Source: Bacillota bacterium (GTDB lineage Bacteria; Bacillota; Limnochordia; Darwinibacteriales; JAAYFS01). From it: DNA of 62,599 bases. Location: assembly GCA_012728115.1 (NCBI GenBank), contig JAAYFS010000006.1, forward strand, positions 1-62,599, given 5' to 3'. The notes under the pieces are model-generated. The model worked only from the letters and a program-made list of their open reading frames with translations, searched no databases and had not been told where the DNA came from. The stretch's first letter is position 1. Each line of letters begins with the position of its first letter. Of the stretch, positions 7,838-12,718 are shown one piece after another. The position numbers and the translations under genes were made by a program.

Positions 7838-8896
7838 TTGGACATAAAAAAGTTTTTATGCGAAATGTCAGAGAGTCCTGGAATATCGGGCTATGAACAT
7901 GATTTAGCTCAAAAAATATCTGAGAACTGTCCATGGGCCGATGAAACACGTAGCGACAAACTTGGAAATCTGATTTTACTGAAGAGAGGAAAAGACGATC
8001 AAAATTCGCGTCCAAAAATTATGCTTGCTGCTCATATGGACGAGATCGGTTTGATGGTAACAAAGATCGAAAAAGAAGGTTTTATTCGCTTTAGTACTGT
8101 CGGTGGATTTGACCAGCGAGTACTCCTCGCACAAGAAGTAGTAGTCCATGGTAAGAAAGATTTACCTGGAGTAATTGGTGCAAAACCACCTCATTCTCTT
8201 ACCGCTGAAGAACGCCGTAGAACCGTGAGCATTGAAGATATGTTCATCGATATTGGTTTTGACTCGTTTGAAAAAGTTTCGCAATACGTAAACGTTGGTG
8301 ACCTAATTACTATTAAGAGAGATTGCCTCTCGTTACAAGGCAACTATATTACTGGTAAAGCTATGGACGACCGCGTCGGAGTAGCTGTTATGTTAGAATG
8401 TCTCAAGGAATTAGCAAAAAGAGAGCACATCGCTGATGTTTACGCTGTTTGCACAGTTCAAGAGGAAGTTGGACTGAGAGGAGCCACTACAAGTACTTAT
8501 GGAATCGTACCTGATATCGGAATTGCGATCGATGTAGGTTTTGGCGATATGCCTGGTATCCCCGAATATGATTCGATTAAGATGAGTAACGGACCTGGAA
8601 TCACTGTTGGTCCACAAGTGCATCCAAAACTTCATGAACGCATGGTAAAAACAGCTCGCGATTGGAACATACCTTTCTCACCTGAAGCCACCCCTTCACC
8701 TGGTGGAACAGATACTTATGCGATGCAGGTTACTCGTTCAGGTATTCCAACCATGCTACTTTCTGTCCCAATCAGGTACATGCACACTCCTGTTGAAACA
8801 GTAGATTATACTGATGTAATTAGAACTGGACGACTGCTAGCGTTATTCATTGCGGAGTTGGACCATGAATTTCTGGAGGGATTAAAGTGCTTTTAA
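7838..8896 (+). CDS. M42 family metallo-aminopeptidase, copy 1
   Basis: A 352-residue dinuclear zinc/cobalt aminopeptidase of the TET/FrvX/YsdC type, which forms large dodecameric peptide-trimming shells. Metal and catalytic residues are visible: AAHMDEIG (H66, D68), KAMDDRVG (Asp bridging both metals), VQEEVGLRG (catalytic Glu plus ligand Glu), AIDVGFGD (Asp ligand) and the final histidine in RYMHTPVE. The start is a TTG with a strong AAAGGAGGG SD. It heads a tightly packed three-gene set and its last 10 bases overlap copy 2. Confidence 0.9.
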   Translation: MDIKKFLCEMSESPGISGYEHDLAQKISENCPWADETRSDKLGNLILLKRGKDDQNSRPKIMLAAHMDEIGLMVTKIEKEGFIRFSTVGGFDQRVLLAQEVVVHGKKDLPGVIGAKPPHSLTAEERRRTVSIEDMFIDIGFDSFEKVSQYVNVGDLITIKRDCLSLQGNYITGKAMDDRVGVAVMLECLKELAKREHIADVYAVCTVQEEVGLRGATTSTYGIVPDIGIAIDVGFGDMPGIPEYDSIKMSNGPGITVGPQVHPKLHERMVKTARDWNIPFSPEATPSPGGTDTYAMQVTRSGIPTMLLSVPIRYMHTPVETVDYTDVIRTGRLLALFIAELDHEFLEGLKCF

Positions 8897-9921
8897 AAAG
8901 ACTATCTGAAGCCTGTGGTGGCCCTGGGAAGGAAAGTGTAGTACGTGATTTGATCAAACAAGAGATCACTGAACAGAATCTGGCTGATGAGATTATTTGC
9001 GATGCCATAGGAAACCTTATTGTTAAGAAAGATGGGACAAAATCCGATGGTCCAAAAGTAATGTTGGCAGCCCATATGGATGAAGTCGCATTAATGATCA
9101 GCAATGTTGAAAAGAATGGTTTACTGAAATTTAAACCTGTTGGCGGCATCGACCTAAGGATTTTAGTTGGCAAGAGCGTCTATGTAGGAGCTAATAAAGT
9201 TTCTGGTGTAATCGGTGCTAAACCTATTCACATGCAAAGACCTGAAGAGAGAAATACGCCTTTAGGACTTAATGAACTATATATCGATCTTGGTGTAAGG
9301 TCACAAGAGGAAGCCGAACGGCTCGTCAAGGTTGGTGATTACGCTTACTTTACCACCTCCTTTAGTGAGTTTGGTGACAACCTTTATAAAGGTAAAGCCT
9401 TCGATGATAGAGTTGGTTGTGCAGTATTAATGGAGGTCTTGAAAGAAAGATATGAATTCCCTCTTTATGTTGCTTTCACCGTTCAAGAAGAGATTGGTCT
9501 AAGAGGTTCAACCGTTGCTGGATATACTGTTGAACCAGATCTAGCACTAGTAATTGAGGGCACTGCAGCTAACGACATACCTGATTCAAAGGAACATCAA
9601 CAATCCACTAACCTTGGAAAAGGCCCAGCTCTCACAATGATGGACAGAAGCGTTATCCCTAATCCACGCTTAGTTAGCGAAATCTTAAAAGTAGCAGATG
9701 AACATAAGATCCCTGTGCAAATCCGTCGTGGTACTCAAGGAGGAACCGACGCAGGTAAAATCCAAGGAACCAAAGGTGGAGTGCCTGTTGCAGTGATATC
9801 TGTCCCCTGTCGTTACATCCATGGGCCAGTCTCTGTTATGAACAAGAATGACTACAATAACACCATTGAGTTAGTCAAGAATTTCCTAAAAACCCTTGAG
9901 CAAAGAGGAGGCGTTTTATAA
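8887..9921 (+). CDS. M42 family metallo-aminopeptidase, copy 2
   Basis: A 344-residue M42 peptidase with AAHMDEVA, KAFDDRVG, QEEIGLRG and RYIHGPVS. The fourth metal ligand is a glutamate here (VIEGTAANDIP) where copies 1 and 3 have an aspartate; both occur in M42 enzymes and the change may shift metal or substrate preference. It starts with GTG and a TGGAGGG SD lying inside copy 1, so translation is coupled. It is clearly divergent from its neighbours, not a recent duplicate. Confidence 0.9.
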   Translation: MLLKRLSEACGGPGKESVVRDLIKQEITEQNLADEIICDAIGNLIVKKDGTKSDGPKVMLAAHMDEVALMISNVEKNGLLKFKPVGGIDLRILVGKSVYVGANKVSGVIGAKPIHMQRPEERNTPLGLNELYIDLGVRSQEEAERLVKVGDYAYFTTSFSEFGDNLYKGKAFDDRVGCAVLMEVLKERYEFPLYVAFTVQEEIGLRGSTVAGYTVEPDLALVIEGTAANDIPDSKEHQQSTNLGKGPALTMMDRSVIPNPRLVSEILKVADEHKIPVQIRRGTQGGTDAGKIQGTKGGVPVAVISVPCRYIHGPVSVMNKNDYNNTIELVKNFLKTLEQRGGVL

Positions 9922-10913
9922 TGAAAGAAATCATCAAGCAACTTGTCGAAGCTTATGGTCCCTCAGGATACGAAGGCCAAGTAACCGACATTATTACTGA
10001 GCTTGTTAAGGATTATGTCGACGAGTTAACCACTGATGTCTTAGGTAACTTGATCGCAGTGAAAAAAGGTACTTCTGGAAAAAAAGTAATGTTCTCAGCT
10101 CATACCGATGAAATTGGATTTGTGATCACTCACATTGATGATAAAGGCTTTTTACGTTTTTCCAATGTAGGTGGCCTCAATATTCTTACCTTAGTCGGTG
10201 GCCGCGTTCGCTTTGCTAATGGCACAATCGGCGTAATCGGCAAAGAAAAAGGCGACCTAAAAGAACTTGATTTGGATAAACTCTTTATTGATATCGGAGC
10301 GAAAAACCGCGAAGATGCACTAGAAAAGGTAAAAGTTGGTGACTTCGCGATCGCACATAGAGAGTACAATGATTTAGGTAATCGTATTGTCTCTAAAGCA
10401 ATGGACGACCGAATCGGCTGTGTTGTATTAATAGAAGCGCTCAAAAAGATCAGCAAACCAGTCCATGATCTCTACTTTGTCTTTAGCTCACAAGAAGAAG
10501 TTGGTTTACGCGGAGCAAGAACTTCCTCTTATGCTATCGATCCAGACCTAGGTATCGCGGTAGACGTTACACCTACTGGAGATACACCTGAAGCACCTAG
10601 AAGCGAAGTTGCGCTCGGTAATGGAGCAGCAATTAAAGTGATGGACACTTCTGTGATCGCCCACCCTAAGGTGAAAGCATTACTAACTCGTTTAGCAGAA
10701 GCTAAAGGAATTAAGTATCAGTATGAAGTTCTCACTCGCGGCGGAACCGATGCAGGTGCCATCCACTTAACCAAGGAAGGAGTTCCAAGCGGATGTATTT
10801 CGATCCCTGTTCGTCATGTCCATACTCCTTCAGAAATGATCGATCTTGATGACGTTCAAGCATGTGTCGATTTAGTTGTAGCAGTGGCTGAAGATGCTTT
10901 AGCCGACTTTTAG
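9921..10913 (+). CDS. M42 family metallo-aminopeptidase, copy 3
   Basis: A 330-residue M42 peptidase. Visible ligands are SAHTDEIG, SKAMDDRIG, SSQEEVGLRG, AVDVTPTGD and RHVHTPSE. Its ATG overlaps the stop of copy 2 (TAATG), confirming a single transcript. Three paralogues with different specificity pockets could act side by side on peptides released by proteasome-like or Clp proteases, or form mixed TET shells as seen in some archaea. That role is inference. Confidence 0.9.
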   Translation: MKEIIKQLVEAYGPSGYEGQVTDIITELVKDYVDELTTDVLGNLIAVKKGTSGKKVMFSAHTDEIGFVITHIDDKGFLRFSNVGGLNILTLVGGRVRFANGTIGVIGKEKGDLKELDLDKLFIDIGAKNREDALEKVKVGDFAIAHREYNDLGNRIVSKAMDDRIGCVVLIEALKKISKPVHDLYFVFSSQEEVGLRGARTSSYAIDPDLGIAVDVTPTGDTPEAPRSEVALGNGAAIKVMDTSVIAHPKVKALLTRLAEAKGIKYQYEVLTRGGTDAGAIHLTKEGVPSGCISIPVRHVHTPSEMIDLDDVQACVDLVVAVAEDALADF

Positions 10914-10942
10914 TTGACAGCTAATAGTATCTTTGGTATTAT
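10914..10942 (+). promoter_or_regulatory. Consensus promoter driving the M-box/mgtE transcript
   Basis: TTGACA, exactly 17 bases, then TATTAT. It begins one base after the stop of the third M42 gene. The predicted start near 10949 leaves room for the whole riboswitch, so mgtE has its own transcript and does not rely on read-through. Confidence 0.8.
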
Positions 10943-10961
10943 TAGGGCGAAAATAATAATA

Positions 10962-11172
10962 ACCTCTTCGTTAGGTGAGGCTCCTACAGAGGATGAGCTA
11001 CTGCCCAAAAACGTCGAGAGACGCCAATGGGTCAACAGATCTTATCGGATTAAGGTATGATCTAATGTAGCGGGCTTAATACCTTACTCTGTAGTGCTAA
11101 AGCTCAACAAGGGAGGCTTATATTGTTATCGCATTTTTGCGAGAACAAACCCCTCCCTATTGGAGGGGTTTT
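10962..11172 (+). promoter_or_regulatory. M-box (ykoK) magnesium riboswitch with expression platform
   Basis: The aptamer shows the conserved M-box strings in order: CGTTAGGTGAGGCTCCTA, then GCTACTGCCCAAAAA, GACGCCAATGGGTCAACAG, and AGTGCTAAAGCTC near 11090-11105. In this class Mg2+ compacts the aptamer and favours the terminator at 11148-11172. The GGGAGG at 11111-11116 can pair with the left terminator arm (CCCTCC) to form an antiterminator when Mg2+ is low. Position before mgtE matches the known regulon. Confidence 0.93.
11148..11172 (+). terminator. Intrinsic terminator of the M-box expression platform
   Basis: AACCCCTCC and GGAGGGGTT pair perfectly around a five-base loop, followed by a short T-run. 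It competes with the antiterminator pairing of GGGAGG at 11111-11116. Confidence 0.85.
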
Positions 11173-11196
11173 CTAATATTCAAGGAGGTGAACCAA

Positions 11197-11316
11197 GTGG
11201 ACAGCGACTCGCGACCTAAACCGAATAATAAAGATAACACATTATGCAAATTAATAAAATACGGTCGTTGTCTAAAGGCGTCCATGGTTCATTGTTTCCA
11301 TCAAAGACTCCTTTAG
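11197..11316 (+). CDS. Possible 39-residue leader peptide upstream of mgtE
   Basis: A GTG with a very strong SD (AAGGAGGTG, six bases away) lies directly after the riboswitch terminator. It opens a frame encoding VDSDSRPKPNNKDNTLCK and on to CFHQRLL. I do not recognise the peptide. Its TAG stop (11314-11316) lies inside the left arm of a hairpin that pairs with the mgtE SD, so ribosomes ending there would be expected to open that hairpin. It may be a regulatory leader rather than a functional protein. Expression is unproven. Confidence 0.55.
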   Translation: MDSDSRPKPNNKDNTLCKLIKYGRCLKASMVHCFHQRLL

Positions 11317-11336
11317 CTACGTCCGTGTTAAAGGAG
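11308..11336 (+). promoter_or_regulatory. Hairpin sequestering the mgtE Shine-Dalgarno
   Basis: CTCCTTTAGC (11308-11317) pairs with GTTAAAGGAG (11327-11336): ten pairs including one G-U, with a nine-base loop. The right arm contains the mgtE SD (AAAGGAGG) and the left arm contains the stop codon of the 39-codon frame. Confidence 0.65.
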
Positions 11337-11344
11337 GAACTTTC

Positions 11345-12718
11345 ATGACCATTGAAATCATTTATGAGAACATTCAAACTGCAATTCGCGAAAATCGATT
11401 GGATACAATAAAAAATCTGCTTAGGGACGAAAACCCTATCAACATTGCGAGACTGATTCGCCTTTTACCCCTGAACCAACAAAGCGTTATCTTTCGGCTT
11501 CTACCAAAAAACCTTGCCTTAGATGTTTTCGAACAATTGGATGTTGAGGATAAACAAACCTTATTCAAGAGTTTTAATGAGGGAACTGCTGTTGAGTTAT
11601 TTAGCCATCTTGATCCAGATGACCAGGTTGAATTATTGGATGAATTGCCAGCTAATGTAGCAAATAAACTATTATCTCACCTTTCCCAAGAAGATCGCAA
11701 TACTCTTGGTATCTTAATGGGTTATCCTGCGGAATCAGCGGGTCGGATTATGACACCTGCACTAGTAAGATTAAAAGAAAATCTCACTGTCCAGCAAGCG
11801 ATCGAACGGATAAGAGAAGTTGGGGTGCATTCTGAAACCATTTACTATTGTTATGTTACTGATGAAAAGCGAATTTTAACTGGCGTAGTGTCTCTACGAG
11901 ATCTGGTGATGGCAAAGGCTGATGCTTTAATTAAGGATATTATGAAAACCGATGTAATAGTAGCCAACACCCATGACGATCAAGAAAAAGTAGCTAGACA
12001 GATCCAAGAGCATGATTTTCTAGCTGTCCCGATTGTGGACAAAGAGAACCGATTGGTAGGAATCGTGACGGTAGACGACGCTATGGATGTCCTTCAAGAA
12101 GAAGCTACTGAAGATCTTTTTATTAAGGCTGGATTAGGACATATTCAAAGTTCAGAAATCGCACGAAGCTATGATTTGGTAAAAGGTAATGTAGCCGCAG
12201 CATTGCGAGCACGCCTCCCCTATTTAATAATTACCCTCTTTGGAGGAATGCTTGCTGGTGGAATCATAGGGGTTTTTGAAGAATCATTAAAAAGCATTCT
12301 AGCTTTAGCCTTCTTTATCCCCGTGATTATGGATATGGGAGGAAATGTTGGAACCCAATCTTCAACCATCTTTACTCGCGGCCTGTTGCTGGGACATATC
12401 ACCATGAATCAGTTTTGGCGGCAATTATTTAGGGAGGTAAAAGTCGGTTTAGCTATGGGGTTGTTCCTCGGGACTTGTTCTGGAATCTTCGGATGGGTTT
12501 GGCAAGGTAGCATTCGTATCGGGTTGGTTTTAATGCTCAGTATTCTATTAACCATTACCCTCGCTACTGTCGTTGGATTTGCGGTTCCATATGCTCTCAA
12601 AAAATGGGGATTTGATCAAGCTGCTGGGGCGGACCCACTCATAACCACCATAGAGGATATCACAGGATTAATTATCTATTTTGCGGTAGCAACCTTATTT
12701 CTTGGGCATCTAATGTAA
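11345..12718 (+). CDS. mgtE: Magnesium transporter MgtE
   Basis: A 457-residue MgtE channel/transporter. An acidic helical N-domain (about 1-130, including LDPDDQVELLDELP) is followed by two CBS domains (about 135-255) that sense cytosolic Mg2+. Five membrane helices follow, with the pore signatures MDMGGNVGTQSS and DPLITTIEDITGLIIYF. It takes up Mg2+ across the inner membrane and closes when internal Mg2+ is high. Expression appears controlled at two levels upstream: the M-box, then the SD-masking hairpin coupled to a leader frame. Confidence 0.96.
   Translation: MTIEIIYENIQTAIRENRLDTIKNLLRDENPINIARLIRLLPLNQQSVIFRLLPKNLALDVFEQLDVEDKQTLFKSFNEGTAVELFSHLDPDDQVELLDELPANVANKLLSHLSQEDRNTLGILMGYPAESAGRIMTPALVRLKENLTVQQAIERIREVGVHSETIYYCYVTDEKRILTGVVSLRDLVMAKADALIKDIMKTDVIVANTHDDQEKVARQIQEHDFLAVPIVDKENRLVGIVTVDDAMDVLQEEATEDLFIKAGLGHIQSSEIARSYDLVKGNVAAALRARLPYLIITLFGGMLAGGIIGVFEESLKSILALAFFIPVIMDMGGNVGTQSSTIFTRGLLLGHITMNQFWRQLFREVKVGLAMGLFLGTCSGIFGWVWQGSIRIGLVLMLSILLTITLATVVGFAVPYALKKWGFDQAAGADPLITTIEDITGLIIYFAVATLFLGHLM

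Follow-up and report, generated by a model that had tools for sequence, protein, structure and literature searches.

The M-box is a textbook magnesium riboswitch, usually described as self-sufficient, which halts transcription when Mg2+ is plentiful. At the ykoK/mgtE locus of Bacillus subtilis, an M-box aptamer and a transcription terminator precede the MgtE gene, as they do in the locus presented here, and that M-box is described as a transcriptional off-switch only, a description in which no leader peptide figures.

Three further systems bear on the present case. MgtL, the leader peptide of mgtA, has a destabilizing EPDP start; at low Mg2+ there is ribosome drop-off at that motif and mgtA is transcribed (accessible sections of PMC11282234; Chadani 2017, cited there). 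The mgtQ ORF, in the Salmonella mgtC-mgtB intergenic region, has only 8 codons, with Asp2 and Glu5. Stems 1:2 and 3:4 compete there with stem 2:3, the 3:4 stem masks the mgtB ribosome-binding site (RBS), and the acidic residues are required for mgtB translation (accessible sections of PMC8092293). In mycobacteria, an M-box is followed by uORF1/uORF2 (Rv1805A) ahead of pe20, and uORF2 has a conserved N-terminus with a proline at position 7; the authors regard the uORF peptide as mycobacteria-specific and its role as unclear (accessible sections of PMC12810186, which also names the B. subtilis ykoK/mgtE M-box). Outside mycobacteria, no report of M-box leader peptides was found in the literature searched, which included accessible parts of PMC11109978, PMC8632094, PMC6429828 and PMC13009471 and a term search of PMC10219788, with preprints and most subscription papers outside its scope. 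The elements are known singly; what appears to be new is their combination, how widely it occurs and the form without an M-box described below.

By analogy, mgtQ is the nearest worked case for a locus in the window (the whole stretch of 62,599 nucleotides analysed, contig JAAYFS010000006.1 of a Bacillota bacterium), which would join the logic of mgtQ and MgtL to an M-box. We consider it reasonably probable that mgtE is here under two Mg2+ sensors in series, an M-box and then an acidic, proline-containing leader read by an early ribosome. The parts are as follows.

10914 to 10942, forward strand: sigma-70-like promoter, TTGACA-17-TATTAT with TG ahead of the second hexamer (pattern scan, 11 of 12 matches).
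10960 to 11122, forward strand: M-box (ykoK) magnesium riboswitch aptamer (RF00380, 131.1 bits, model positions 1-169 of 169).
11110 to 11116, forward strand: AGGGAGG, 3′ strand of aptamer P1 and antiterminator candidate (read from the sequence).
11150 to 11174, forward strand: intrinsic terminator, the M-box expression platform (sequence and a terminator-like site at 11154-11168).
11182 to 11191, forward strand: Shine–Dalgarno (SD) sequence of the leader ORF, AAGGAGGTGA (sequence; anti-SD duplex of −17.1 kcal/mol).
11197 to 11316, forward strand: leader ORF, GTG start at 11197-11199, 39 codons, TAG at 11314-11316 (sequence; N-terminus VDSDSRPKP).
11184 to 11216, forward strand: segment 1, the leader SD, start and first codons, with segment 2 as predicted partner (duplex energy).
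11258 to 11299, forward strand: segment 2, late leader, predicted to pair through 11263-11299 with segment 1 or, alternatively, through 11258-11282 with segment 3.
11306 to 11329, forward strand: segment 3, containing the leader stop codon, predicted to pair through 11308-11317 with segment 4 (masking; duplex energy).
11327 to 11336, forward strand: segment 4, predicted to mask the mgtE SD in the 3:4 hairpin (duplex energy).
11330 to 11337, forward strand: mgtE SD, AAAGGAGG (sequence).
11345 to 12718, forward strand: mgtE, MgtE-family Mg2+ transporter of 457 amino acids, ATG at 11345 (Pfam PF01769, PF03448 and, for CBS, PF00571).

The aptamer is assigned on a covariance-model score far above the gathering score of 44. 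AGGGAGG at 11110-11116 is the perfect complement of CCTCCCT at 11152-11158 in the terminator stem, whose full extent, read from the sequence, is 11150-11156 with 11162-11168; the pattern scan lists the terminator-like hairpin at 11154-11168, followed by TTTTCT. The window thus has a terminator with an alternative pairing to the P1 strand, as an M-box expression platform should, and a short SD-led ORF ahead of a Mg2+ transporter gene, as expected of a leader of the MgtL/MgtQ type. The promoter is a lead only, three such sites occurring in the region where 1.2 are expected in shuffles. A competing frame at 11244-11348 (ATG, 34 amino acids), whose TGA overlaps the mgtE ATG, was rejected as leader because any ATGA start makes such a stop and no strong SD was seen upstream; neither this frame nor the leader frame has a match in Pfam. 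Upstream, at 7838-10913, lie three consecutive ORFs of 352, 344 and 330 amino acids that appear mutually similar and, by eye, may be of the M42 aminopeptidase type.

The four segments are predicted to form an mgtQ-like fold, in which 1:2 and 3:4 exclude 2:3. In the window, the duplex of leader start and late leader (1:2) reaches −34.7 kcal/mol and that of late leader and stop-codon arm (2:3), into which segment 3 enters along its whole length (release), −27.2 kcal/mol, neither being equalled in 2000 dinucleotide shuffles; the masking duplex (3:4) has −14.8 kcal/mol, with 14 of 2000 shuffles as good. In the last of these, CTCCTTTAGC (11308-11317) pairs with GTTAAAGGAG (11327-11336) in ten pairs, one of them G-U, and GTTAAAGGAG includes most of the mgtE SD. 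The stretch 11174-11380 as a whole folds with z = −3.3, equalled by none of 200 shuffles. An initial annotation of this DNA had described an M-box, a terminator, a strong SD and a 39-codon GTG frame, which we find base for base as described, and had placed the TAG at 11314-11316 inside a hairpin pairing over ten positions with the mgtE SD region, which the duplex energies bear out. It had overlooked the acidic/proline N-terminus and helices 1:2 and 2:3, both stronger than 3:4.

Like mgtQ, as far as the accessible text describes it, the window leader has Asp at codon 2, acidic early residues and the same alternation of stems masking a transporter RBS. For mgtQ, holding a ribosome at the start shifts the balance to 2:3 and switches on the Mg2+ transporter; in the energy model of the window, an early ribosome likewise frees the mgtE SD. 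Unlike mgtQ, which in the same text has 8 codons, lies in an operon after mgtC and has no M-box, the window leader has 39 codons in the order M-box terminator, leader, mgtE. With enterobacterial mgtL, on the accessible account, the window shares a leader peptide with an acidic/proline start ahead of a Mg2+ transporter gene; the output of mgtL is Rho-dependent transcription termination, whereas in the window it would be a predicted RBS-masking fold, with an M-box as the first sensor. The likeness to mgtL and mgtQ is one of mode of action, and no homology is claimed, the peptides being too short for a homology test. The mycobacterial locus likewise has an M-box, then a small uORF, and an SD/anti-SD alternation, but there the M-box itself switches the uORF SD, and Mg2+-dependent ribosome destabilization is not mentioned in the accessible sections of that report (PMC12810186).

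We propose the following sequence of events. At high Mg2+ the M-box, whose aptamer and terminator are both identified in the window, would terminate transcription. Transcripts that read through would carry the leader ORF with its acidic, proline-rich start, on whose early codons ribosomes would pause, or from which they would drop off, at low Mg2+, as for MgtL and MgtQ. A ribosome dwelling early would cover segment 1, so that 2:3 could pair and the mgtE SD in segment 4 would be free; with easy elongation at high Mg2+, or with no ribosome on the leader, 1:2 and 3:4 would form and mgtE would be masked. Should drop-off be so fast that segment 1 is mostly empty, the fold would predict masking. The sensor is probably the acidic/proline start, through pausing or drop-off at low Mg2+, and not completion of the leader. 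We infer that the leader is translated; its dependence on Mg2+ and the direction in which the switch works are taken over from mgtQ and MgtL.

Modelled ribosome positions agree with release of mgtE by an early ribosome. Without a ribosome, 10.7 kcal/mol are needed to open the mgtE RBS in the window; a ribosome on codons 1-8 lowers this to 3.8 and one in mid-leader raises it to 13.4, and ribosomes placed four codons upstream of the stop and on the stop itself give 7.4 and 4.2. Over the 57 loci whose leader stops upstream of the transporter start, the transporter RBS is masked more than in shuffles when no ribosome is present (7.63 vs 6.26, p 5e-5) and less than in shuffles when an early ribosome is in place (6.14 vs 7.03, p 0.002); the release by an early ribosome, which in the energy model may be either paused or initiating, is 1.49 kcal/mol vs −0.77 in shuffles (p 1e-7). 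At least 2 kcal/mol is released by the early ribosome in 20 of the 57, where 2.7 are expected. For the 35 loci comparable at all positions, the early ribosome again gives a release (1.88 vs −0.67 kcal/mol shuffled, p 2.6e-6), and a mid-leader ribosome gives none above shuffles (p 0.65).

The same calculations bear on a different proposal, namely that mgtE is translated only if a ribosome completes the leader and so opens 3:4, or terminates there and re-initiates. In the window, the fall from 10.7 to 4.2 kcal/mol with a ribosome at the stop speaks for it, and to that extent the claim of the initial annotation, that finishing the leader frees the mgtE SD, holds as a possibility at this locus. 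As an essential step, however, completion is not supported: at the stop codon the release across the 35 loci is not above that of shuffles (0.98 vs 0.47 kcal/mol, p 0.24), and the stops are scattered. Among 73 loci, 16 leaders overlap the transporter start (Alkalithermobacter, Natronobacillus and Alkalibacterium among them), 18 stop 0-20 nt upstream, a distance compatible with re-initiation, 26 at 21-46 nt and 13 further, the range extending from overlap to 163 nt upstream. A conserved stop together with unmasking at the stop, the mark of stop-codon coupling, was thus not found across these loci. Coupling to the stop would also leave conservation of the N-terminus only, described below, unexplained, and if the acidic start causes drop-off at low Mg2+, mgtE would fall just when it is needed. 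We therefore hold this explanation to be unlikely. With an early-acting leader, by contrast, drop-off in the overlapping lineages would directly leave the transporter start free.

The four closest MgtE loci, with 61–67% identity over the matched part, all have an M-box and a terminator, followed by a GTG frame with an SD, the leaders of G019 and G001 having been missed by the blind SD-energy rule and read by eye, then folded with a hand-set start. A nucleotide search with the whole leader region aligned, in close relatives, the M-box part alone; the leaders were therefore compared by position, SD and translation. Their N-termini are VADDGDPLT (G019), VDDGDPLRR (G001), VDGVPRCW (G007) and VDGVPRCC (G004), and the window and its relatives have the leader start and the N-terminal type in common. 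Between 16 and 28 nt separate the leader stop from mgtE in four of the five loci; in G007 the distance is 141 nt. Close relatives, in short, keep the start and the N-terminal type of the leader and not its stop. Of the conservation that the initial annotation would have looked for in relatives, the start of the frame and its N-terminal type are present, and the position of the stop is not maintained. Nor is the hairpin conserved throughout, the SD-masking helix of G004 being no better than chance (165 of 500 shuffles as good). The mutually exclusive stems 1:2/3:4 and 2:3 are only partly present in the four relatives; with fixed segment borders, 1:2 and 2:3 of G001 (236 and 313 of 500 shuffles) and 1:2 of G019 (247 of 500) are at chance level. 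With an early ribosome, the opening cost falls from 8.1 to 4.1 kcal/mol in G019 and from 6.1 to 5.0 in G001, barely in G007 (7.2 to 7.1, or 7.8 to 6.0 with a shorter footprint) and not at all in G004 (8.1 to 8.1).

More generally, in the 73 of 86 loci that have a usable late stretch, the leader start pairs more strongly with the late leader than it does in shuffles (−20.6 vs −14.9, p 2.6e-11). Pairing of the main SD with the late leader is weak (−12.2 vs −11.4, p 0.005; 3 of 73 loci individually below 0.05), and masking of the SD through one simple helix is not claimed as a general feature.

An M-box is present in 135 of 398 genomes of the phylum. The Bacillota survey and named loci gave 167 distinct M-box loci, 17 of 154 listed places being left out for want of sequence and 31 of 33 further rows being used (one G019 duplicate and one at a contig end were omitted). 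Leaders were selected blind to the peptide, by locating the first start downstream of the M-box that has a strong SD. It belongs to a short ORF in 104 loci and to a long gene in 53; in 7 loci there is nothing of the kind, and 3 show something else. A leader is thus not required for every M-box gene. For the N-terminus, removal of ORFs with fewer than 8 codons left 101 of the 104, and removal of near-identical N-termini left 97. Asp or Glu occupies codon 2 in 73 of the 97 distinct leaders, which, where they come from related genomes, are only partly independent of one another, compared with 8 of 138 short SD-led control ORFs (p 3e-30) and 11 of 84 long SD-led ORFs (p 6e-18) from the same loci. 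At least one D/E and at least one P stand in residues 2-8 of 67 of the 97 leaders vs 19 of 138 controls (p 2e-18), and the +1 and +2 frames of the leaders show no bias of this kind. Position 4 is most often aspartate (37 of 97) and position 5 most often proline (39 of 97); a frequent start type is M-D-x-D/G-P, as in the EPDP of MgtL and in MgtQ. The start in the window, VDSDSRPKP (D2, D4, P7, P9), is milder than EPDP and fails the strict MDx(D/G)P pattern.

Leaders of this kind are found in named records (Alkalithermobacter MESDDFRR, Natronobacillus MEGDCDSS, Mediterraneibacter MDSGAS) and in two Spirochaetaceae (MDSDPGPS, MDADPDPY). A second set of 57 loci from Bacilli and Actinomycetota (for Bacilli, 30 loci plus L261 and L262) yielded, among the matches listed, 36 short ORFs, with D/E at codon 2 in 20 (p 1e-10) and at least one D/E and at least one P in residues 2-8 in 28. 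In 20 genomes, the combination of an SD and MDx(D/G)P occurs at 15 distinct sites, 11 of which immediately follow an M-box. With M-box loci of several phyla carrying it, the leader is no local curiosity; this spread and its presence in all four relatives lend good support to the initial suggestion that the M-box is followed by a further layer of control, linked to translation and resembling mgtL in its logic. Were the frame merely a chance ORF and the M-box the only control, the 53 loci in which the M-box terminator suffices for a leaderless gene would be readily understood, but the counts at codon 2, repeated in the second set, refute that reading for the leader group, and overall it is highly improbable.

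The proteins downstream, in nine loci scanned, are three MgtE, three CorA, one PRC with MgtE, one PRC alone (part read) and one ABC permease. The last belongs to L064, where an M-box and the leader MDADPGPQ precede an ABC permease (PF00528) that is not a known Mg2+ transporter, the main gene lying at +284. Two tandem ORFs of leader type, LGDDDLDSC and MDAGPEQR, stand before the main gene of L074, at +85 to +400 after the M-box. One Bacilli genome has two tandem M-boxes about 100 nt apart (G625:C3:349678-350100, minus strand).

Substitutions distinguish the two parts of the leader. For 18 independent leader pairs, the ratio of synonymous to non-synonymous changes is 14 to 21 in codons 2-8 and 20 to 121 in codons 9-25 (p 0.001). 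Third positions account for 22 of the 43 base changes in codons 2-8, whereas codons 9-25 have no codon-position bias, with 72, 71 and 61 differences at the first, second and third positions. Several synonymous codons are in use for Asp and for Pro in the leaders. The early acidic and proline codons are thus conserved as peptide, as a leader of the MgtL/MgtQ type would have them. From these sequence comparisons, only codons 2-8 look to be selected as peptide, and the remainder would evolve as RNA; this is most naturally understood if the nascent peptide is what counts in the first eight codons and RNA structure in the rest. A small functional protein made along with MgtE might account for the strong SD and for a start type that recurs in most M-box loci. 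It would sit badly with changes in codons 9-25 that disregard codon position, with widely varying leader length and with a window frame that matches no Pfam family, and we judge it extremely unlikely.

Leaders also occur without an M-box. Among 46 mgtE loci lacking an Rfam M-box, a short ORF with an SD lies upstream in seven, and four of these ORFs have Asp at codon 2: L201 MDAGDSRSR, L253 MDAGSSGS, L239 MDGSPHIC and L241 MDERPRS. A search for an M-box in the four found none, even at E 0.1. In L239 and L241, hairpins at the leader start are kept with different sequences, and a helix covers the mgtE SD. These standalone cases, though only four, support the leader as an independent regulator. 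In L201:2160-2416 and L253:1343-1570, a promoter and an acidic leader ORF stand before mgtE together with a terminator-like hairpin, an arrangement that may possibly be a standalone ribosome-based attenuator.

It could then be asked whether the leader acts on transcription, as enterobacterial MgtL does, through Rho or a second attenuator before or inside mgtE. There is precedent in MgtL (accessible sections of PMC11282234) and in Rho-dependent termination behind the mycobacterial M-box with uORFs (accessible sections of PMC12810186), and in L201 the 5′ arm of the terminator-like hairpin, at 2384-2416 between leader and mgtE, has an 11-pair alternative partner inside the leader. That hairpin, however, was read by eye and folded, and was not listed by the pattern scan, which likewise found no second terminator between leader and mgtE in the window. 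For the window, we regard action on transcription as distinctly improbable, and hold to the RBS-releasing fold governed by an early ribosome.

We incline slightly towards a more general proposal: in Bacillota, Actinomycetota and Spirochaetota, M-box regulation would have a second half that is ancient and widely distributed, a ribosome-based Mg2+ sensor, which in some mgtE genes takes the place of the riboswitch entirely and to which mycobacterial uORF2 would belong. The same type of peptide would serve several outputs, namely folds that release the RBS, leaders that overlap the transporter start, or attenuation of transcription. Actinobacterial M-box leaders of G805 and G859 (MSPSDSPY and similar) have proline 7 as in the published uORF2, a likeness to its description only, in the accessible text. 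If most M-box genes carry an MgtL/MgtQ-like leader, the sensing of free Mg2+ by RNA would be joined, over a wide range of bacteria, to the sensing of Mg2+ adequacy by ribosomes, and ribosome destabilization as a Mg2+ sensor would be no enterobacterial special case. It would also suggest a possible role for the mycobacterial M-box uORF, whose function is left open by the authors in the sections accessible (PMC12810186).

A separate observation concerns the mgtE loci themselves. In 11 of them (L216, L219, L221, L222, L224, L226, L231, L232, L235, L237 and L249), titled Syntrophomonadaceae, Dethiobacter, Bacillota or Firmicutes, a 6S RNA (RF00013) lies upstream of mgtE on the same strand, at about positions 1940-2440 in each.
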